A stretch of 64,000 nucleotides of DNA. Origin: Branchiostoma floridae (Eukaryota; Chordata; Leptocardii; Amphioxiformes; Branchiostomatidae). A program made the translations under genes and the position numbers. The stretch is from positions 10,129,726-10,193,725 of the forward strand of contig NC_049985.1 in assembly GCF_000003815.2 (NCBI RefSeq). Reading direction: 5' to 3'. The notes below the pieces were generated by a model that saw nothing but the letters and a program-made list of their open reading frames with translations, did not search any database and had not been told where the DNA came from. Numbering within the stretch: the first letter of the stretch is position 1; every line of letters begins with the position of its first letter. Positions 22,345 through 36,930 of this stretch are shown here, piece by piece.

Positions 22345-24415
22345 TTTAGTAGTAAAATCATTCTTTATTCATAGTAAAGAAAGGTACACAGAGCCCAGGA
22401 CACGATGGTCATTGCTGGCCATACATGCAGGGGGACATAAGACATAGGACATAACATAAATAGTATTGCACATTGTGGGTATTGCTTATCATTACTTTAA
22501 AAACATTGTATTCAGTTTAGTTCGGTTTTAATTTGTCTAAATTTGACTTAAAATCACAACATTTCAGTCGTCAATAATGTCATATAAATGCTCTACATTT
22601 CTCAGCCTTGTGGGTTTCTACAATAGCGTTTCTGACTCCCAATACGGTTCGTGGCGTGAGTTCCAAATAGCGTATGACGACAACAAGGCAATGCGGCTTA
22701 TATCAGTAAACAGAGTCTTCGGTGGTTTAACTTTAACTATTTTGAACAGTGTTCTAAGCCTGGTCTTGTTCTCTGGCGTGACGAGTCCCCTTGATCCGAC
22801 CTCAAAGCAGGTTAGTGTAGCGGAAATGCCTGCAGTTTTTAAATCTGCTGCTAGGGCGCTGTATTTATTCACCTTTCGGTCATGACTTGCTTTGATGTTC
22901 TTTTCAAACGGTACAGTCAGTTCGTAGGTGTGGAGGGTCTTCTGTTCTGGCAAATAGATGACCAGGTCTGGTTTCTGGGTAGTGGGTATTGTATGGACCG
23001 GGATAGTACCTCCGTTACTTGTGTAACCTTGTATGTCCGCATAGATGGTGGCGTTGATCCGAGAGGGGTCAATGGACTCTTTGATGGTGTCTGTTATGTG
23101 CTTTAATACCGAGTTGTGTCTGAATGTGTATCGTCCTTGTTGGAGAGCGACACCACAGTGGTTCAGAACGTGGTGGAGTGTTTCCCGATTGCCACACAGT
23201 TTACATTTGTCAGTGTTACGTTTTCCCCAAGTGGTCAGGTTACAGAGTGTTGGGAGGGCGTCGATGGAGGCACGCACAGCGAAACTGAGGATACCCCTCG
23301 GCAGGTTGTACATAGCGGACCGCCATGTCAGGTCACATTTTTCTTCCTCAAGCAGTTGTAGCATCTGCCCTTGCTGTAGAAGGTTTTCCTGATGTTCACT
23401 CCAGACGTCGTGACGCATATCGGTGACTTGTTGTTTGACATGTTTACGTACTGATGTCCATTCTGACTCCTTTGCTGCATGGATGGCTTGTTGGTGGATG
23501 GTGTGACACTTTCCAATACCCCGTTTCTGCATTTTCCTTGTCCACTGCGATTCGCGGTCCAGTTTGGCTTGCAAAGCGTGTTTTACCTTCTCATCGGCTT
23601 TGAGTACTGACCTACTGTAGGCCAGAGCGTGGGCTTCTAGGTACAAGTCTGAGATGCTTTTGAAGTTGAGACCCCTTGTGTTGTACAGGATGGCATTTGT
23701 GGCACTAGGTTGCATTCTGAGCCATGTTTTGATCGCCTTTGTGTGGATGGAATCAAGTTTTTGTAGCTGGGTGTCTGTCAGGTCGTGCACCATCAGCATG
23801 TACCTCCAAGATGGGAAGGCATACTCCATGTATACCCTGAGCTTGTATTCGTTCCTTATCGCTGATTTGTTTATATTTTCAATAGTTGTTTCTATTGCCT
23901 TTGCTAGAATGTCATAGGTTTCTTTTGTTTTACTCAGGAAGGTTATGTAGCCACCTAAGAACTTCTCCGGTGCATCTTTGGTTGTTTTTACAGGGTCCCC
24001 GTCAATCGTAAAGCTGATGTCCGATGGCTTCCCACTCACAATGGACATAGATTTGCACTTACGCGGTTTCAGTTGTAGGTTCATCGACTTTGTGTTAGAA
24101 GAGATTTGTGTTATGAGCTTCTGATGCTGTCTTTTGTTTGTGGTTATGAGGCAAAAGTCGTCTGCGAATGGGAGTGTGATGTAGTACTTGTCATTAAGGT
24201 TGTAGCCGTGTTGCTGCTCTACTCCCTTGAGATGCTGTAGGATAGGCTGGAACACTGTTAGGAAGATGATGGGTGACAAGTTGTCTCCTTGGAACACTCC
24301 TCTTCCAAACGGGAAGGGATCACTTTCCCAGCCTGGGCCCTTCACTTTCCCTTTCAGGCGAGAGTACAGGTTTTTGATGTACTTACATTGTATCTATTTA
24401 GAAGTGCTATGCAAT
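22345..24415 (-). mobile_element. 5'-truncated non-LTR retrotransposon (RLE type)
   Basis: The C-terminal RT-to-endonuclease coding part (ORF below) is followed by about 270 bp of 3' UTR. A minus-strand AATAAAG lies at about 22363-22369, after which homology signs end near 22345. The 5' end is lost around 24390-24415, where the frame meets TAG just upstream of the RT finger/palm motif. The 3' end and any target-site duplication could not be fixed. Confidence 0.8.
22618..24395 (-). pseudogene. Reverse transcriptase / CCHC / restriction-like endonuclease ORF, 5'-truncated
   Basis: The open frame starts just after a TAG near 24395. The listed residues count from the GTG codon at 24345. It contains the RT block RGVFQGDNLSP, then the catalytic FADD (60-63) and LGGYI (about 131). 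A zinc knuckle follows (C381, C384, H392, C397). The restriction-like endonuclease carries RHN (409-411), KPD (458-460) and E476 in YELTVPF. This order is that of single-ORF RLE elements such as the R2, NeSL and HERO groups; the exact clade is undecided. The N-terminal zinc fingers and first half of RT are missing, so it is a dead-on-arrival insertion, although the remaining 575 codons have no stop. Confidence 0.88.
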
Positions 24416-27390: not shown

Positions 27391-27697
27391 GCTGGGTCTT
27401 TGGCATGATGGAAAGTTGCTGATTTGTGATTTTTCTTCATTTCTTAAATATCTTAAACTGAATGTGCGATCTGTCTGCCTGAGGTATTGTCGGCAGGGAA
27501 ACTTACAATCTCTTGGTCGGTGGTAAGGTGCTTGAGTATGTTTTGTTGATATCCTGAGTGATGATGTTGGTGGAGGGTTGGGGCGTTTTGTGAGTGGCGG
27601 CTTCTTTGACAGACAGGGCTTTGGTCGGTTTCTGCAGTGTACAGGCCCGATGTTTGGCTGCTTCGGTTTCTGTGATTATGTTAATGGCCGGGATTGT
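27390..27697 (-). mobile_element. Penelope-like element remnant, downstream half (interrupted)
   Basis: On the minus strand it reads TIPAINIITETEAAKHR and, after indels, LTTDQEIVSFPADN. The latter is the decayed form of the L..D.DI.ILPADKG motif found at the N-terminus of Penelope-like RT proteins. Its upstream half continues at 36368 on the other side of the Ngaro-type insertion. Several frameshifts and stops make it a fossil. Confidence 0.65.
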
Positions 27698-27757
27698 ACT
27701 AAATCCCTTCTTACCTCGCTCTCTGTTCGAGTTTAGATATGGGCGTTATATCGGGTG
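27698..27757 (-). repeat. Split direct repeat B2 (element 3' end)
   Basis: 60 bp starting ACTAAATCCC and ending TATCGGGTG (plus-strand reading), identical to 28008-28067. It marks the outer boundary; the flank GGATTGT belongs to the interrupted Penelope-like target. Confidence 0.92.
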
Positions 27758-27829
27758 GCTCAAGGCCAAGGGCCCGAACAGAGGCAAGATAATCAGGACG
27801 CTGCGCGGAGATGCCTTAGTTCTTCCTTC

Positions 27830-27862
<33 letters not shown>

Positions 27863-27932
27863 CATTCCCAATGGCTCCTATCACTTACCAGCCTGGGAGG
27901 TGCGCGCTTGTTCATCCCTTCCACTCCTACCC
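27758..27932. other. Spacer between A2 and B2
   Basis: Single-copy element DNA containing a poly(T) run of about two dozen bases (27832-27856). No gene. Confidence 0.75.
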
Positions 27933-28007
27933 CGCGACACGGAGTGAGATCACATGTGGGGTTTGTTGTATCTAACTCGCTCATCGCGCGAGGCATGACG
28001 GGATAGT
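27933..28007 (-). repeat. Split direct repeat A2
   Basis: 75 bp from CGCGACACGG to GGGATAGT, identical to A1 at 36293-36367. It abuts B1 directly. In a circular intermediate the junction GGGATAGT/ACTAAATC would be the recombination site, as it is here internally. Confidence 0.92.
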
Positions 28008-28067
28008 ACTAAATCCCTTCTTACCTCGCTCTCTGTTCGAGTTTAGATATGGGCGTTATATCGGGTG
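28008..28067 (-). repeat. Split direct repeat B1
   Basis: 60 bp identical to B2 at a 310 bp offset. It lies between the recombinase ORF 3' region and A2. Confidence 0.92.
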
Positions 28068-28558
28068 CTCCTGCCTTCCCCCCTTTACACACAGCTTTTA
28101 TCCTTCCCCTTCTTCTCACTATCTTCCAATACTTACAAAAATCCAACCTACCCCTACTTGGTTTCCCTCACCTCTCGATTTTCCCTTTGCCTGATGAAAT
28201 CACACAAACACTTCACGTTCTCTCATATTCACTCCCTTTATTCCTTGCTCGGCCCATGTCGTCTTATCTATCTTGGCTGATAGCAAGCGATACTTCCAGA
28301 TTATCCATGTTCAACTCATCCCACCGCCTAGCTCCCCCTGGCGACTCACAATGCTACTACATATTTAGGGAATAACAGTCCGATCTCTTCCCACGCCGTA
28401 TACATCTGGTCAAATACAGATATTGTCAATGGGTATTCGCCACCTCACAAATGTTCCTATTACTATTCTGCTAGATACCACACTTACCCCGGTAGTCTGA
28501 CTAGAGAAAAGGGCATGTTATTTGCTAAACATTGTAATACCGTCGTGGGGAAATTAAA
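28068..28558. other. Element 3' untranslated region
   Basis: Between the recombinase stop and B1. Pyrimidine-rich on the plus strand. No further ORF on the coding strand was recognised. Confidence 0.6.
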
Positions 28559-29944
28559 CTAAAGCACTGGCTTGTAGTCTGTACTGTTCTTACACTGATA
28601 CACTGTTGCCGCATCTGTGATCCGTTTCTTAGGGTTGTCTTTTCGGGCTCCCGGTGTCACTTGTTCGCGTAGGATGGCCGCAGGGGACTCATCGTGGCAC
28701 ACCTTCCTGAGTTGCATATATCGCTGAGCTGTCGCTTTCTCCCGCCATCCCACGTGTGCCATGAGGGCTGACTGGCTCGCGCCCCCCATTGCTATGGTGA
28801 TAGCACTGGCTGTACGCAGACCGTGAAGGGTGTCTCCTTCGTACCTGTTTATTTTGATCAAATACTCCTTGAAACGGCTCTGGGCTGCGTCGTAAGAAAA
28901 GGGCTCGTTGACCACCTCTTTCGATTTATTCATTGCTCGGAAAAGATAACCTTTCGAGAGGTTAATACCGAGAGCCGTGGCCATTGTGAAGTATGCCTGT
29001 AAACCTCGAACTGGGCAGATGGCGCTGTTTTCGTTAGCTAGAATTGGGAACGTGTTTGCTGTTCCGTCTCGCAATGTCTTGCCAAAAGTATGGTTAAATA
29101 GGATGCCCTCACCCTCCGGTAGCCACGCCAGTTCTTCTGATTTACACCTGCCTAGGTCTGCTGCTCTGTCCGCTCCGAAGAACATGGCCTTGAAAAACGC
29201 TTGATCCCGAGCCAAAGTGAAAAGCTTACTTTCTTTAGTCTTTGGGTCTCTCAATTTCACGGCGATATGCGTACACAACGCCTCCAACTTGTCATGGAAG
29301 ACTGGTTGAGCTTGTGTAGGTTGAATCAAGGCGTTAGCCTGCTCTGCCTTTGTTATCCTAAGGTATTCTGCTACCCTAGGTGCGACTGCTGGGTTTCCCG
29401 CACATATCGCGTCGTTCCATTCGCCGCCCCTTCCCGATTTCGTGAAAATCGATCGTAGTTGTCCGATAACGGAGTCTACCGTCCCGGCTGCCAGTCTCTT
29501 TGGGCAGCCACACCCCGACTTTCGTTTTTCCCCAAAGTTCTTACCACCCGTCTTATGTACTATAGTTTTCCCCCCTTCGTCTTTCCAGACTAAGAAACTG
29601 CAAACGTCTTTTGGCGAGGCTGTGGTGAGGTCCTTGGGGGGAGATCTATTACCTAAGAAGTTTCTTAACTCGTTTTCAAGTGCAGCTTTCTTTTTTCCAT
29701 AGTCTGAGCTTACGGCTAGTTTGTTTATTTCTTCTAACCGTGCCTGAATCTTGTCGTCGTCCACATCCAACTTTTCCCTTGGTGGTGGGAAGGGTTGCCT
29801 TTCGTATCCGCACATTTGACACAGCCTGAAGTCGTGATCGTTGGGGCGATGGCACTCTGGGCATGCCACTGATGGCGTCCATTGTCGTGGAATCAGGGGT
29901 AGTGGCTGTATGCGGGCGAGAGGGTGGTGTTTAATCTTTGACAT
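28559..29944 (-). CDS. Tyrosine recombinase of the Ngaro-type element
   Basis: 461 residues from ATG at 29944. It would integrate the circular DNA copy of the element by site-specific recombination instead of using a DDE integrase. Catalytic residues of the family are visible: R260 (ADRAADLG), H374-G-L-R377, H397..W400 and the nucleophile Y409 (AQRYMQL). A zinc-ribbon-like CxxC-x10-CxxC (C28, C31, C42, C45) sits at the N-terminus, probably for DNA binding. A second Cys cluster (SGCGCP, about 144-148) follows. It lies 53 nt downstream of the frameshifted end of the RT frame. Intact, so possibly active. Confidence 0.92.
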   Translation of the reverse strand: MSKIKHHPLARIQPLPLIPRQWTPSVACPECHRPNDHDFRLCQMCGYERQPFPPPREKLDVDDDKIQARLEEINKLAVSSDYGKKKAALENELRNFLGNRSPPKDLTTASPKDVCSFLVWKDEGGKTIVHKTGGKNFGEKRKSGCGCPKRLAAGTVDSVIGQLRSIFTKSGRGGEWNDAICAGNPAVAPRVAEYLRITKAEQANALIQPTQAQPVFHDKLEALCTHIAVKLRDPKTKESKLFTLARDQAFFKAMFFGADRAADLGRCKSEELAWLPEGEGILFNHTFGKTLRDGTANTFPILANENSAICPVRGLQAYFTMATALGINLSKGYLFRAMNKSKEVVNEPFSYDAAQSRFKEYLIKINRYEGDTLHGLRTASAITIAMGGASQSALMAHVGWREKATAQRYMQLRKVCHDESPAAILREQVTPGARKDNPKKRITDAATVYQCKNSTDYKPVL

Positions 29945-29997
29945 CGTAATAACGTATGTTCTACTGTTCTTCTATGGTAAGGTACCGGGGTGTAACC

Positions 29998-32242
29998 TTA
30001 TTCTTGTTCCAACCTGAACGCCCACAGTTCGTACTGGAATGCCTTTCCAGGTCTCAGACCTTGCTTGGATGGAAACCATAGAGCTGAACTATTTCCTGCT
30101 TCTGTTAATTTGATGCTTGTTTTCGCCACCCGTAACAGTGTCGGCCACCACAGGGGTCTCGGGCACAACTTGGGGACAATTACCGTCACGTCTGCTTTCC
30201 ATTGTATCAGGAAATTGATGACTGCCCCTGTCATGTTGATGGGTGGGAAAACATACGCATTCTCTCTCTCCCCCCCCCGGGGAAGTTGTGGGATTGTGCC
30301 TGAATACGTCTACACCTGCTGACTCCGGCGTTGGATAAGGGGTATAATGCTTTAGCGGGTTACCCGAATTGTCTCTCTGTACGTTAGAATCCAACGCCAT
30401 CAAGTCTACTGAATGTCCCCGCTGACCCCCAAATGCTGATTGCACACGTTGCCAAAGATGAGGTGCCAACATGCAGTCCGTTTTGGACAGCTGTCTGGAT
30501 GGTTGATCTGCCTCGTTATCTTTTGTTTTGACGTGTGACATAGATAGCGATATATTCAGGGCCAATGTGGTCTGGAATATGTTCTTGATTTCCTCATTCA
30601 GCGGCAGAGCCCGGGCCCCGCTGCCTTGCCACGAGTCTACTACTGCCCTGTTGTCTACTTTCATGTGTACTCTTGAATTAACGATCCATTGTTTGGCTGC
30701 TTTAAGGGTGAGGGCTACTGCTTTCGCTTCTTTACAATTGATGTCCTTAGCTCTATCCTGCTCTGACCAGTAATCCCCCAGTTTAACGTCCGACTCTGGG
30801 TACCCCACACCGTGCAGTACCGCACCCCATCCGTAACCTGACGCATCGGAAGCTATCGTGATGGACGAGTGTCGCTCGTCCCTCCATGGGACCGGCTTCA
30901 TGTCATTATCTACAAAGCGCCAATGTTCTATTTCAGAGCGAACGCCGGCTGGAAGCCTGGTGCGGATTTTCCCTTTCTTTGTCATTTCTCCAACAAGCTT
31001 ATTACACTGTCTCGTGTAAATGCGCGCTCCCGGGGCCATAAGCGCCATTGAGACGCATTTGCCGACGAATTTTTGCAGGGTGTGAAGAGATACCATGGGG
31101 GCGCTAAGAATCTCCTCCCTGAGTGTTATGAATTTTAGGCGTTTGTCGTCCGGGAAGAAGAAGACGCCATCTTTGGAGTTCAACCCAGCACCTAAGTGTA
31201 CCAAAATCTGTGTCGGGATGATGATACATTTATTCAGACTGAGGTAGTAACCCACTCTCGTGAGCAACTCACACATGACGTAGCTTGCTTTCTGTGCTTG
31301 TGTGTATGGGTGGAGGGGTAGTGCTATGGTCATGGGCGGAGGGGCTGTGGCTTCGCCGTTCAAACGGTCATCAATATACAGCATTGTTGGTACCCCTAGA
31401 TGTCTAGCATACGACGAGATTACACTTCCTGTTGTGTGGAAAATAAAGGCTGACGCGGACCAGCCGAATGGCAGGGATGAGTAGACGTACAGAACGTCGT
31501 CGAATTGAAAGCCAAAGTAGGTCCAACTCTCTTCCGTCAGGCCGATGTGCGAGTAACCACTTTTTTCATCTGTGTGGGTCATGTAACCTCCTTTGTATAG
31601 CATTCTTGGGGCCTCCGTGATTGGGTCTAGATTGAATGGGCAGCGTTTCGTCCAGAGGTTAAGAAACCGCCCATTCCAGCACATTCTCGGTTTTGAAGGC
31701 TCTACCGTAAGGGGTAATACTAAATGAGGGGGGTCGCAATGTCCTACCCTCCCCCACACTTTAATGGAGCCGTCTGCTAATCTATCTTTTATCTGAGACG
31801 CTAGAAAGTCATGGTGTTCTACACAGTTTCTGGCGTTGGGGAGGATGATTGATGGGGGTGTGGCAGCTTTGTATGTGTTACCTTTGAAAGACCCATCAAA
31901 AGGTGTGAAAAAGTCACTGACGTTTACTTTGTTCGTGATCCATCTTAACACGTCTTCTCCCTTGTCGGAGAATGGTGTTAGTTGTGCCCATACTTCTTTA
32001 TTGTTGTGTAGGGACCCAGCTATAAAGCAATCTGGGTTTCTAAACGGCAAGGTGGTCGGATCCATGGTCTCCTGGGTGGCTATGGCTTCCTCCGCTGGTA
32101 TCGGAGTTGTCGGGACGGGTTCCGGCCACGGTCGCCCGTCATACGTCACCCACGTGGTGTCCTCATCGGCACGCGTGGCTATGTTGTAAGGGTCAAACGA
32201 AGCCTGGCGGGGTGACCTCCCGGGGCGAGAAATTTTCTTCAT
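29998..32242 (-). CDS. Reverse transcriptase / RNase H of the Ngaro-type element, frameshifted near the end
   Basis: ATG at 32242. The main frame runs 717 codons to 30089. RT shows the LPFGWSASAF block and catalytic YIDD (289-292). RNase H shows D466 (SDASGYGWG), E505, D530 (VDNRAVV) and D579 (NEADQPSR). After TSPGGG (about residue 655) the frame becomes unrelated text. The next frame carries the expected continuation NAYVFPPINMTGAV, then NFLIQWKADVTV, and stops at 29998. The switch falls in a run of nine G followed by GAGAGAGA (30264-30281), so an indel, a sequencing error or programmed shifting are all possible. The family's usual copy of cDNA from RNA is the inferred role. Confidence 0.9.
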
Positions 32243-33759
32243 GGTTGGGTTCTAAGGAGGGAAACAGGCGTAGAAACATTGAGGATCTATCGAGACACTT
32301 GGGACTCCGAGTCAAACTTGAGAAGCTTATCGGGGGGATTGGTCCCTACGTACCCCGCTCCCTGAATGATTAGACAATCAATCCGGCCACAATAATCAAT
32401 TGACCGCCGCAACTTTTTCAGAGCACCTCCCGAGGGCTAGACAGCGGTTGTGGGGTGAGAATCAATACATAGAAAAATGATAATCTCTACGCCAAAACGG
32501 ACACAACAAATGCTTGCTTGCACAACATGAAATCATCTACTACACGGAATGGATCTAGGACAATCTCCTACGCACGACTCGAGTCTTGTTATATGCGAGG
32601 GTGGGTGAGGGGGGGGGGGGCATTTCAGGGTGTGACCCTGCGTATCTCTTCGCACAATGCGCGAGTGGTTTGACCGTCTGGGGACACGGGTTCTAGACGC
32701 ATACAGATACCGCCTGGCACGTCTGGGCTACATACCGAGCTTCTCAGTTAGATACAAAGAGAAGATCCCGTCATTAATTTGCACGGCGGCATCTTGCTCC
32801 AATCAGTTGCAGATGCCACCGATACAAAGTGGTACCGGCATTATCAATAGACAATACCGTTCAGGTCTGGTGAATGTCGTGACCCAGGCTGTTGCTGTTA
32901 TCGGCAATGGGTTTGAGAGTAAATACACAGTTGAACTTGATAATATGCACGCGTAGACCTGAAGTAAATTTTAGGTTTAAGCACACGCCGGGCTTATCAG
33001 GTGACATACAAAAAGAGATGTTATCGACAATGATTGGTACGAAGACGGTTTTGCTCATGTCAAATGTAGATGCCGCAAGGTACAAATACAAAGAATGCGA
33101 AGAATGGCGGCCTCCTCAAATCATAATGAAAACAAAGATCTGGTCTGATCGCAATCGGGTCTGTTGATACATATGTAAAAACCACGTCGTCACGATGGGG
33201 TCTTTATGAGGTGTATTGTTAATGTCGTTTGTGTAGCCCGAATTCCTTTCCGTCACTTGGGTGTAATAATTCGGTCCACATGTGCTATGTCAAAGCGGCA
33301 GGCCACCTACTGGCTGCTGTCATTTGGCTCAAAGGAAATCGGTGTCACACAGCAGTGTCACTAGCGCTGTCATTTACATGAGTATGTGATCTGTAATTAA
33401 TTTTTTTGCGGACCGCTGCCTCTCAAAGAAAATATCTGAACCGAGCCCCGAGCGGGTTTCCATATCGACGACTCTAATCTTGACCTATTTGAAGCGTCGT
33501 GTCGTGGGGGGTCACATCCCGGTTTACATCAAGACATGGTTAATCGACGTCTATCTTTGCTCTGAGGTCAAATCACAATGCAAAAAGAAAGGAAAAAAGG
33601 CAACATGGACATGTGTGTATGTGCATCATTCTTTCTTTAATCTTCGTGTTCTAACTTTCTACATGACTTTCTTGTGCTTACTAATCTACCAGAGTCATTA
33701 TGTATGCTCTTTCGTTACACTTTTAGAGTTCAGGTCTGTCGACCAGTCCCGTCCTCGGT
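32243..33759. other. Unassigned region between gag and RT inside the element
   Basis: About 1.5 kb with no long coding-strand frame. It contains a G-run near 32610-32620. It could be a second intron, a control region or a nested insertion. No protein similarity was recognised. Confidence 0.4.
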
Positions 33760-36268
33760 TCACCGCCGCTTCTTCGGGTTGAGGCCTAGGGGGCAGTCGG
33801 ATCGCCAGTGGCCAACCTCCCCGCACGTGAAGCACCTGTCTGAGTTGTGGATGCGTGGCGGGCGTGCCGAGGACCGGCGAGGAGGTGGTCCCCATCCCTC
33901 GGCGCCCGAGCCCTGTCCCCATTGTCGGTATGGCTGGGGTGGGCCCTGGGGCGGTCCCCAGGCTCCTGGTGGTGGCGGTCCCCAGGCTCCTGGTGGTGGC
34001 GGGCCCCGGTGGCTCTGAGGCTGACCGTAGGACGGCTGGCGGTTGCGGCTGGCGAGCGCCGCCTTTGCTTTCTTGGCCTCTGCCATGAATCGGCGCTCGG
34101 ATGTTGTCATCAGGAGAATCCTGACTTCTTCTCCAATCCCCTCGTTCGAGGAGTTTTCGAGCACGAAGTTTGCTAAGTTCTCGAAGCGCTCCACAACGCT
34201 CCTTTTAGCTCCCACCCTGATGGCTTTCTCCTTCAGGCGACACAATGGTCCGTGAAGTTTGGCGGGGTAGCGATGGACGAGGGGGTCTAGACATGCTTCC
34301 TTTGCCTTGTCTAACTCCCGTCGAAGCGAGTCATCCTAGAGAGAAAATCAAATGAAAACCAACGTCAGGTTTTACTCTTCAAACTGCTCCAGATTTCCGC
34401 TCATTGCCCCAACTATCTGGGCTAGCGGCTTTGGCTGACACATGTTAGCGAACTAGGGAACGTACGGGAGTCTTTGTCGGCGCCCGACTGTGACGTGGAG
34501 GAATGTCATGATCGATTAGGGAATACCGAAAAACTTGTCTCATGCTGCGAGAGCACATTGTTGACACCTCGGTTTGTCTATCTCTAGACCTGGGTGTAAT
34601 TAGGAGCTCGGTGGGGTAATTGTATTTTCACGATTACAATAATAGCTACATGGGCGAGGGAAAACAAACTTAGAATTTGAAAAAAGGCGAGAAAACACTG
34701 GATTCCTCCTCCCTCTTTTAACCTGTACTTAGACGTCTGCACAAGCTAATCGAGAGGCGGGGGAAACCGAGTAGGGGTAGGCTTAGCCGAAAGACCGAAA
34801 GTTTTGTTTTCTTGCTCGCGGGGAGAGAAAACTTCGTCGTCTGTGCTTGTGCCGGTTGAGGGAAGCACATTTATTTGTTGTGTTTTCAAATTTTGTGGGT
34901 AAGATTATGTCTTAGCCCCGCTTCGGCGGAAAGAAAATCAAAGATGCAACCTGAGATTCAACCTGCCCATAATTTTGGGAATCAAATGTTACTTCTTTCG
35001 TCACCGTGGGGGGATACACACTGTGACCTGCTGGTCTAGAGAAAATTTATAACCCATATCGTTTCCTCGTTTTTTGGGAGATGCGAAAAACTTCAAACCA
35101 CTCGTCCTTTTACAGCGGGGTAGATCTCGTTTGTTTCATGCGAGGAGATACAACTACGACCCGCTCGTTGGAAACACCGGGTTCAGGTTTTGTTTTGTTC
35201 GTTTCTGCGGGGAGGTACAACTGCAACCCGCTCGTCGTAAATACAGAGATTTTTTTTTTTTTTTTTTTTTCGTTTCTGCGGGGAGGTACAACTGCAACCC
35301 GCTCGTCATAAGTACAGAAATTTGTTCTGTTCGTTTCTGCGGGGAGGTTCAACTGCAACCCGCTCGTCATAAATACAGAAGATTTGTTTTGTTCGTTTCT
35401 GCGGGGAGAACAAACTGAAACCCGCTCGTCGGAAATACAGGGTTTCGTTTTGTCTTGTTTGCGGAGTTTCAGAATTCTGGTTCGTTCGTTTCGACGGGGA
35501 GATACGACTGCCACCCTATCGTCGGAATACCAAGAGTTTTCGTTTGTCTCAGCGGGGAGATACAATTGCAGCCCGCTCTACTAAATCGGGATACACACTC
35601 CACCCGTCCAGGGGAAAACCCAGAGCAAATCTCTCTGTCGCTGCGGGGAGGTACAACTTCAACCCACTTTTCGTCTGTACATATCTGCCCTAAATACACT
35701 TTTAAACCCAGGAAGAAACCGTACTGACCTCGAGATCACTCTCGTCACCAGAGCTGGAGTCCTCCTCCGGTGGGGCTGGCTTTTTCTTCTTTGCTTTCTT
35801 GGCTGGTGGTGGGAGGCCAGAGGAAGAGGCGCCGTCTGTCTTCGACGCCGCTGCTGTTGTTGCTCGCTCTGTCCCACGGGGCGGGACGTGGGTAGGGTCC
35901 AGGAGGTTCGCGACTGCCTGGGCTGCGGTTTTGCTGGCCTTGGACGGCTGGATCTGCTGCCTGGGGGCGACAGTGTCGTTGGCCGCCAGGATCAGAAAGT
36001 GGGCCAAGCGCACGATGGTTTCGTGCGCTTTGGGGTCCATTCCTGTCATGGCTAGGAGGAAAACGGTGTCTTGTCCTGTGAGGGTCTCCAGCCGCTCCGA
36101 AAGCTCGTTGTCGCTGAGGTTCCCGAGCGGCACGTCGGCTGAGAACCTGGCAAGGAGATCCTCCTCCGGGAGGGGAGTTTCTCCTCGCACCGTCTTGTAG
36201 ATATCGAACAAGTTCTGTCCCACAAGGGTGGCATCTCCGCGCAGGACAATGGGAGTCGGGGCGCTCAT
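33760..36268 (-). CDS. Gag-like protein of the Ngaro-type element, two exons
   Basis: Exon 1 is 36268-35729, from ATG reading MSAPTPIVLRGD to GDESDLE, with donor GTCAGT. Exon 2 is 34335-33760, after acceptor TTCTCTCTAG, reading DDSLRRELDKAKEACLD to the stop. They join in phase 0 to give 371 residues. Unspliced, the first frame stops 12 codons past the donor and the second has no upstream ATG. The C-terminal half has a Pro/Gly-rich repeat (GPPPPGAWG, twice) and one CCHC zinc knuckle (CFTCGEVGHWRSDC), the RNA-binding signature of Gag. Upstream it is Lys/Ser-rich. The intron is predicted from the sequence, not proven. Confidence 0.8.
34336..35728 (-). other. Predicted gag intron (1,393 bp)
   Basis: GTCAGT...CTCTAG boundaries restore a single frame across gag. 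The intron contains the 60-bp minisatellite. Retention of an intron in a retrotransposon implies that the genomic RNA is copied unspliced. Confidence 0.65.
35127..35680. repeat. About 60-bp minisatellite inside the gag intron, eight or nine units
   Basis: The core TCGTTTCTGCGGGGAGGTAC followed by AACTGCAACCCGCTCGTC and AAATACAG recurs with variation at about 35127, 35198, 35270, 35331, 35393, 35485, 35541 and 35635. One unit carries a poly(T) expansion (35251-35270). The unit reads as alternating AETN and PRRNE peptides on the minus strand, which explains a spurious open frame there. Confidence 0.85.
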
Positions 36269-36292
36269 GGTGAGGTCCGTGCTATTCCGGTT

Positions 36293-36367
36293 CGCGACAC
36301 GGAGTGAGATCACATGTGGGGTTTGTTGTATCTAACTCGCTCATCGCGCGAGGCATGACGGGATAGT
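36293..36367 (-). repeat. Split direct repeat A1 (element 5' end)
   Basis: 75 bp identical to A2. The element ends at 36367 (GGATAGT); the flank GTTCGGAG belongs to the interrupted Penelope-like target. It lies 25 bp upstream of the gag ATG and so would contain or adjoin the promoter. Confidence 0.92.
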
Positions 36368-36470
36368 GTTCGGAGTTACTGTGAGGTTTCGTCCTCTGGA
36401 GAACAGGGACTTTTCTGGTTCTGTTAGTTTATGACTGCTTGGGTTCTTCTACCGCCTGTCGTCCTTTCTG
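36368..36470 (-). mobile_element. Penelope-like element remnant, upstream half (interrupted)
   Basis: On the minus strand it reads SHKLTEPEKSLFSRGRNLTVTPN and stops at the Ngaro-type insertion. It resumes at 27697 with TIPAINIITE. LS..LT..E.SL.SKG.NFAVTP is a conserved block before the RT of Penelope-like proteins. A stop upstream (TAG) shows decay. Confidence 0.65.
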
Positions 36471-36519
36471 CCTTGTGTGATGGTCTATGGGTCCGGAACC
36501 TAGACCGTTACATAAGCTG

Positions 36520-36565
36520 CCCTGTGTCGTAATCTTGGGTCCGGAACCAAGACGACGACACAGGG
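36520..36565. repeat. Imperfect palindrome between two Penelope-like remnants
   Basis: CCCTGTGTCGT..TCTTGG (from 36520) and CCAAGA..ACGACACAGGG (to 36565) can pair around GTCCGGAA. It lies exactly between the head-to-head remnants, and GGTCCGGAACC is also repeated at 36490-36500. Confidence 0.7.
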
Positions 36566-36930
36566 ACAGAAGGGAAGACAAGTGGTTGAAGAGCCTAAGT
36601 TGTTACGAGCTAACACAACTAGGGAAGTCTCTGTTCTCTAAAGGATGGAACTTTGCAGTAACTCCGGCTGCAATCGTGGTCATTGGCATAGTCACAGAAG
36701 CTGAATCAGCCAAACGTCGGGTCTATATACCGCAGAAACTGGCTGAAGCGCTGTGTGTAGAAGTAGTCACTGCTCTCAGAATGTTCTAATCAACCACCAG
36801 CAACATTATTCAGGATGTCAACAAAATATGCTCAACGCCTTGTCATCAAACAAGAAATTGCGATTTTCCCTGTTGACAATGTCGCAGATATGACGGGAAC
36901 ATACATTAATTCCAAATTTAACATCACAAT
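36559..36930 (+). mobile_element. Second Penelope-like remnant, head-to-head copy
   Basis: The plus strand reads KWLKSLSCYELTQLGKSLF then SKGWNFAVTPAAIVVIG and TEAESAKR. It is homologous residue by residue to the interrupted minus copy. After a stop (36787) homology goes on with SNIIQDVNKICST and, shifted, EIAIFPVDN. It is a decayed coding fossil; no RT core is present. Confidence 0.65.

Follow-up and report, generated by a model that had tools for sequence, protein, structure and literature searches.

Exchange point and short target match at the insertion sites of an ALOG-type, PAT-like retrotransposon in Branchiostoma floridae

In the portions of the literature cited here, the insertion of the complementary DNA (cDNA) of tyrosine-recombinase retrotransposons is described by a model that is based for the most part on the structure of the repeats, and the question of how such a cDNA joins its target is raised by a locus in the amphioxus Branchiostoma floridae. 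The locus (L009) lies in a 64,000-nucleotide stretch of DNA, hereafter the window (contig 7, positions 10129726-10193725), and holds a retrotransposon of the DIRS order whose tyrosine recombinase carries an ALOG domain. Based on the window copy and on the junctions of related copies in the same assembly, the element is very probably a DIRS/PAT-like ALOG retrotransposon whose recombinase exchanges strands at a single point, C^TATC, with a C^TAT(C)-like target, without duplication or loss of target bases. Sequences are given in the sense of the element, which lies on the minus strand; the caret marks the exchange point, and -1 and +1 are the bases on its two sides.

Exact insertion at the window locus

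In its sense orientation, the element reads A1-ORFs-B1-A2-B2, where ORFs are the open reading frames, A1 and B2 are the terminal repeats and B1 and A2 adjoin internally as a copy of a circle-type junction (Table 1); this order constitutes split direct repeats. The two A copies agree at 75/75 positions and the two B copies at 62/62. The exchange point lies between 36366 (-1) and 36365 (+1) at A1 and between 27696 (-1) and 27695 (+1) at B2, which gives GGCCGGGATTGT^ACTAAATCCC at the left edge and GACGGGATAGT^GTTCGGAG at the right edge, with GACGGGATAGTACTAAATCCC at the internal junction; the right-hand target flank begins with AATCCC from +1 on. The ends can be shifted jointly by up to two bases (to 27698-36367) with an identical empty site either way, and joining 27697 to 36368 consequently yields the same product as joining 27695 to 36366, two bases being shared.

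The interrupted target is one arm of an inverted repeat, the other arm of which is uninterrupted and serves as a paralogous empty site. The first-pass annotation, made from the letters of the window, had claimed that the ends of the element are exact, that no target bases were gained or lost and that the joined frame (VTPN^TIPAINII) is colinear with the second copy, and these claims are borne out by the alignment. The joined flanks match the inverted second copy (about 36835-36567, about 300 bp away) free of gaps near the joint, the nearest gaps being more than 100 columns off, and the minus-strand translation across the joint is VTPN^TIPAINIITETEAAK, where the second copy has VTPAAIVVIGIVTEAESAK. 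The repeat search recovered the same two arms, with 74% identity over 165 nt and 75% over 100 nt. GATTG is also found at the insertion site of the second copy, and the T by which the flank departs from the element's own GGGATAGT is therefore taken, as the simplest reading, for a base of the target and not for an element mutation. A short relative (L047) lying in a minisatellite provides the other exact empty site: here GGTGCTGAACGC^TATCC corresponds to GAACGC^TATCT and GAAAAC^TATCC in neighbouring units. Judged by these alignments, the window element is inserted without gain or loss of target bases.

The target itself is an inverted repeat (36481-36789 and 27532-27695) with arms about 75% alike, a 96-nt spacer and a coding-like frame that is partly open. 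Against Pfam, the frame in the second copy (95 aa) gave no match at E<=5, and the Penelope-like label initially attached to the target was thus not confirmed.

Junctions across the assembly

The assembly (513,431,437 bases in 431 contigs) was searched for relatives of the recombinase, and the resulting main table comprises 31 insertions with 21 left and 24 right junctions, both junctions being available for 14 insertions. In these junctions the exchange point is fixed: the left junction consists of target up to -1 followed by element, and the right junction of element up to -1 followed by target. The mirror edge of the spacer was used in no junction of this table. When the target bases were compared with the element's own junction, assuming a control of 0.30 per position (the bases occur at frequencies of 0.22-0.27 in the loci retrieved), identity rose sharply in a short stretch beside the exchange point. 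In left junctions, positions -8 to -2 were identical in 6, 3, 4, 8, 3, 5 and 9 of 21 cases, near chance, and position -1 in 19 of 21 (binomial P 1e-8). In right junctions, positions +1 to +4 were identical in 17, 19, 21 and 14 of 24 cases (P 4e-5, 9e-7, 8e-9 and 4e-3), and positions +5 to +9 in 11, 9, 6, 9 and 6 of 24, again near chance. The common core of the targets is C^TAT(C) in sense and (G)ATA^G on the opposite strand; the right-junction triplet is exactly TAT in 12/24 and NAT in 17/24. The first-pass annotation had proposed a core of the form GGATxGT shared by element and target. Alignment over both sets of junctions upheld a short target match to the element junction and led to rejection of the seven- or eight-base core, which does not extend to other copies; the matches of the window copy at +5 and +6 are no rule of the family (11/24 and 9/24).

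The two sides of an insertion are not equivalent. The element's +1 to +3 triplet is replaced by another in half of the right junctions (12/24) as opposed to a single left junction (1/21, L058). In all six informative two-sided insertions (L009, L014, L016, L018, L040 and L075), the element triplet stands on the left and a differing one on the right (TAT versus AAT and TGT in two insertions each, GAT in one and AAG in L040). Likewise, the exact element spacer was present in 20/24 right junctions and in 0/21 left junctions. The four inexact right spacers (L016, L040, L053 and L075) are one or two letters off, and the figure of 20/24 is favoured by some short copies in which the copy's own B2 served as spacer reference. 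At spacer positions -6 to -2 the target agrees with the element at 29/105 positions, the level of chance. The suggestion that the recombinase pairs short homologous cores thus holds as far as a short match is concerned, and is doubtful in its canonical sense. Target duplications or unrelated flanks in other copies had been named as observations that would speak against exact insertion. Among the 14 two-sided insertions, the suffix-prefix match is 0 in 13 and a single nucleotide in the remaining one, so that no duplication exceeds 1 nt, and the flank matches poorly in one of the 14 (L040, AAG versus TAT).

The junction between B1 and A2 mostly forms an imperfect palindrome with a spacer, and in the window copy the exchange point is the right edge of this spacer. 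The palindrome centre was read at -3.5 or -4 in 16/18 tails, which puts the exchange point at an edge of a spacer of 6 bp. The palindrome exceeded random positions in the same tail in 13/18 tails (p<0.05, uncorrected), and the antisense junction folded better than shuffled sequences in 6/6 chosen cases (z -3.0 to -7.8). The exchange point would be the expected cut position of a tyrosine recombinase on the antisense strand, 5'-GGGATA^GTAC.

The counts follow these rules. The recombinase search gave 57 matches; 27 tails were examined and 19 taken as holding the B pair. Left ends were located by DNA searches and short fetched loci, and the 24 left-end candidates read, besides others, are a subset of all matches. 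Every flank entered in the main table was recovered in the retrieved sequences when it was checked against them. Excluded from the main count were L034 (flank cut off), L030 and L036 (B pair diverged or rearranged), L015, L025, L031, L033 and L038 (no B pair), L021 and L026 (other repeats only), L048, L059 and L062 (A end truncated), L063-L072 (a different terminus, mostly amplified copies), L041 (N flank) and L003 (without outer end); L017, likewise without the pair, was kept for its B2 end. A second count re-admitted L030 (right junction ATT) and L036 (right junction TTT), both weak matches, and gave 18, 19, 23 and 15 of 26 for right positions +1 to +4 and 14/26 deviating right triplets. The element triplet of L016 was taken from A1 (its own A2 reads TAC), the right half was borrowed from L011 for L075 and from L013 for L017, and in L027 the end of the B repeat was chosen by eye as the exchange point. 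L050, L051, L054, L060 and L061 were counted once, as L050, because they have their flanks in common, which indicates a single insertion that was multiplied as part of a larger repeat; the idea that the 82%-identity group to which these fetched members belong represents many separate insertions was rejected on the same ground. This group may hold many more copies of the short A-B derivative of the L050 type. Positions +1 and +2 on the left are TG in L061 and TA in L050.

Proposed integration mechanism and alternatives

The split-repeat layout, exactness at two sites, a fixed exchange point, a short match and the lack of duplications emerge from the sequence itself, and the element's own recombinase would perform the insertion with the joined B-A molecule as its substrate. 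In the proposed mechanism, the cDNA would carry the B-A junction, seen here as the internal B1-A2 copy, as a mostly palindromic recombinase site with a spacer of about 6 bp. The recombinase could then exchange strands at one point, C^TATC in sense and GATA^G in antisense, with a target matching roughly C^TAT(C). That only the antisense strand is exchanged, with replication completing the insertion, is put forward tentatively, at somewhat less than even confidence. Canonical two-strand exchange needs homology in the spacer, and exchange of the antisense strand alone is therefore favoured, as in integrons with a folded attC site; the chance-level spacer identity (29/105) and the single dominant product type would both be accounted for by it. 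The asymmetry of the junctions fits one-strand exchange.

A single-stranded route resembling the integration of integron cassettes may accordingly be drawn by analogy, and is entertained here with similar reserve. The first-strand (antisense) cDNA might fold at the palindromic B-A junction, the ALOG recombinase might cut 5'-GATA^G and join it to one strand of an (G)ATA-like target, and host replication might then finish the insertion. Integron recombination also involves a short match at the crossover. The likeness is one of working only, namely one-strand exchange, an asymmetric reaction and replicative resolution (PMC2727003, PMC4792948, as far as these sources were available); integrons are bacterial and are not retroelements, and no homology with the window element is claimed. 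Among the titles and abstract openings retrieved, no proposal of integron-like integration was found for these elements, which is not proof of novelty; a publication on single-stranded DIRS intermediates exists (2020), and circular intermediates have been proposed (PMC5633606, PMC5006619, in the parts consulted). If true, a single-strand route would apply to a eukaryotic tyrosine-recombinase retrotransposon and would explain the unmatched target and spacer, the occurrence of one of two product types and the lack of duplication. The many exact junctions in one genome make the proposal testable in terms of one exchange point, one strand, a match of 3-5 bases, the palindrome edge and an unmatched spacer.

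Several points weigh against this interpretation. The case is made from sequence, and neither activity nor a circle or cDNA was observed. Exactness is based on two paralogous empty sites, neither of which is allelic. In 13/21 left junctions the B1-A2 sequence of the copy itself was not available, and its B2 or a relative supplied the left half of the circle junction; in addition, many of the C bases at -1 in left junctions may be derived from the element instead of the target. The palindrome was no better than random in 5/18 tails (L012, L013, L020, L027 and L030), several of the 18 tails are near-copies of each other, and palindromy suits a double-stranded site like lox as well as it does a folded single strand. 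Individual copies also deviate: in L040 there is an additional C, and positions +1 to +3 read AAG instead of the TAT of the element; position -1 is G at both junctions of L053; and the left junction of L058 shows C at +1.

Among the alternatives, a two-strand exchange of a double-stranded circle in the manner of lambda or Cre, with an overlap of 5-6 bp over -1 to +5 (CTATCC) and one strand product always kept, is possible, if rather doubtful. The region of homology (-1 to +4) is about the size of such an overlap, and recombination at an identical 3-bp motif has been proposed for DIRS1 (PMC3266345, in the part consulted). However, tyrosine-recombinase sites are described as two inverted repeats flanking a 6-8-bp segment (PMC3212892, in part), so that an overlap at -1 to +5 should sit centred in the palindrome, whereas the palindrome centre lies about 6 bp away from the overlap centre; in addition, the retention of one strand product (12 deviations on the right versus 1 on the left) needs an extra bias. 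Alternatively, the 6-bp spacer (-6 to -1) could itself be the overlap of a two-strand exchange, with strand-biased repair or segregation always leaving the target spacer on the left. Its length is Cre- or Xer-like and the exchange point is the spacer edge, but target identity in the spacer is at chance and the element spacer appears in none of the left junctions, which makes this variant unlikely. Tyrosine recombinases generally require homology in the overlap.

A fortuitous match of the arms around the joint, with target bases lost or replaced, would be compatible with arms that are merely about 74% alike; it is very improbable in view of the lack of any gap near the joint, the continuing reading frame and the equal exactness of L047 in an unrelated target. 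Insertion by a transposase or integrase that duplicates a few target bases (TAT or ATC), the duplication being mistaken for homology, is the least probable explanation and was rejected on the empty sites and the junction table: 12/24 right junctions do carry TAT, so that TAT stands on both sides, but the triplets differ in the window copy and five others, each of the paralogous empty sites holds a single copy of the triplet, and among the ORFs scanned with Pfam a tyrosine recombinase and no DDE integrase was found.

In addition to the integron system, two groups of tyrosine-recombinase elements may be compared. The integration model for DIRS1-like elements likewise recombines an identical short genomic motif without target duplication and assumes a 3-bp circular junction and inverted repeats (PMC3266345, as far as consulted); in the present family, by contrast, the match of 3-5 bp lies beside the exchange point and outside the palindrome spacer, and the junctions are asymmetric. 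Cryptons, as described in the part of PMC3212892 consulted, are also tyrosine-recombinase mobile elements, with short terminal direct repeats thought to be recombination substrates; they differ in being DNA transposons, which have neither a reverse transcriptase nor split repeats.

Coding content and family assignment

Table 1. Features of the element and its target in the window
Feature	Positions	Strand	Basis or remark
Whole element	27696..36365	minus	8,670 bp
A1, left terminal repeat in sense	36293..36367	minus	100% identical to 27933-28007
gag, first exon	35729..36268	minus	frame open until putative donor GAG/GTCAGT
Putative spliceosomal intron in gag	34336..35728	minus	GT..AG boundaries
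gag, second exon with CCHC zinc knuckle	33760..34335	minus	PF00098 E 2.1e-7
Reverse transcriptase - RNase H - methyltransferase-like ORF	30089..32248	minus	RVT_1 E 4.4e-5, under curated Pfam cutoff
Tyrosine recombinase, 470 aa stop to stop	28559..29971	minus	PF04852 E 1.1e-24; PF00589 E 4.7e-5, under cutoff
B1 repeat	28006..28067	minus	repeat comparison
B1-A2 junction, circle-type junction copy, imperfect palindrome, spacer TAGTAC (sense)	27982..28031	minus	
A2 repeat	27933..28007	minus	repeat comparison
B2, right terminal repeat in sense	27696..27757	minus	62/62 identical to B1
Target flank, first arm of inverted repeat	27532..27695		repeat search and alignment
Target flank, remainder of first arm	36366..36470		repeat search and alignment
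Second arm, uninterrupted, paralogous empty site	36567..36835		repeat search and alignment

The gag gene appears to be split by an intron with the boundaries GAG/GTCAGT and TCTCTCTAG/GATGAC, both of which are kept in a close relative on contig C3 (L052), whose recombinase is 96% identical to that of the window copy. The putative intron holds about eight degenerate repeat units with GCGGG..CCCGC arms at a spacing of 58-93 nt, and the first exon gave no convincing Pfam match (best E 0.07). The region following RNase H is conserved in relatives and matched no Pfam model; a methyltransferase-like fold is predicted for it. An AlphaFold model of this region from L011, built from 10 relatives, reached a pLDDT of 89.8 and was closest to S-adenosylmethionine methyltransferases such as KsgA and a cap adenosine methyltransferase (best E 1.7e-3, TM 0.51; no match below 1e-3). 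In the window copy the frame is broken at a run of C inside the methyltransferase-like part, and the conserved part continues in another frame.

The recombinase comprises an N-terminal zinc ribbon, an ALOG DNA-binding domain (PF04852, 87.4 bits versus a cutoff of 26.6) and a catalytic domain with R-HxxR-H-Y. The catalytic R, HxxR, HxGW and Y are aligned in the relatives that cover them, the exceptions being the decayed copies L036 and L038. In searches of the PDB, a profile of eight recombinases matched the plant ALOG protein LSH3 (8p5q) at E 1.5e-17 and Cre at E 7.6e-4. The binding motif of plant ALOG proteins, YACTGTW, resembles the junction core TACTATC at window positions 28000-28008 (TACTGTC in L015), and the ALOG domain of the recombinase may keep a DNA preference related to it. 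The junctions offer a route to mapping the DNA site of this domain, and the retroposon ALOG domain has been derived as the source of the plant developmental regulator family (Iyer and Aravind 2012, PMC3537659, in the portion consulted).

By its sequence, the window element is an ALOG-type, PAT-like retrotransposon of the DIRS order. Reverse transcriptase and tyrosine recombinase occur in one element and target-site duplication is absent, as in the DIRS order. Split direct repeats whose B1-A2 part follows the recombinase, a methyltransferase domain and a Gag zinc finger, the features by which the echinoderm form of Pat1-like elements is defined in the relevant part of PMC4157794, are all present; the ALOG recombinase and the gag intron are not mentioned in that part, and the likeness rests on the described features. 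Strictly DIRS1-like elements have inverted terminal repeats and internal complementary regions, whereas the termini here are split direct repeats, and none of the 10 inverted pairs in the repeat search joins the two ends of the element. The A1-ORFs-B1-A2-B2 layout is also that of Ngaro (PMC8547959), and a Ngaro-like element has been noted near the amphioxus VCBP genes (PMC2632668), both as given in the portions consulted; membership in Ngaro was rejected because the family of the window element has a methyltransferase-like domain, which Ngaro lacks according to the same part of PMC4157794.

The ALOG recombinase places the element with the ALOG retroposons of Iyer and Aravind (PMC3537659), in whose account, as far as consulted, ALOG domains in DIRS1-type retroposons are reported from B. 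floridae among others. Common features are the zinc-knuckle Gag, reverse transcriptase-RNase H, a methylase-like domain and a recombinase with N-terminal zinc ribbon and ALOG domain. That account gives 159-bp terminal direct repeats (Ectocarpus) and infers the metazoan copies to be inactive; in contrast, the direct repeats of the window element are split, its junctions are exact and its recombinase frame is open over 470 aa.

Other observations

L005 (C6:27647598-27648522) contains one additional unit (B-mid-A-B-mid-A-B), which looks like a second junction recombined with, or copied into, the first. L040 (C6:27043250-27044450) is a short deletion derivative, apparently nested, as read by eye, in the gag of a related element. 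A further reverse-transcriptase ORF of 591 aa lies on the minus strand of the window at 22618-24393 (RVT_1 E 4.2e-13, zf-RVT E 1.4e-5).

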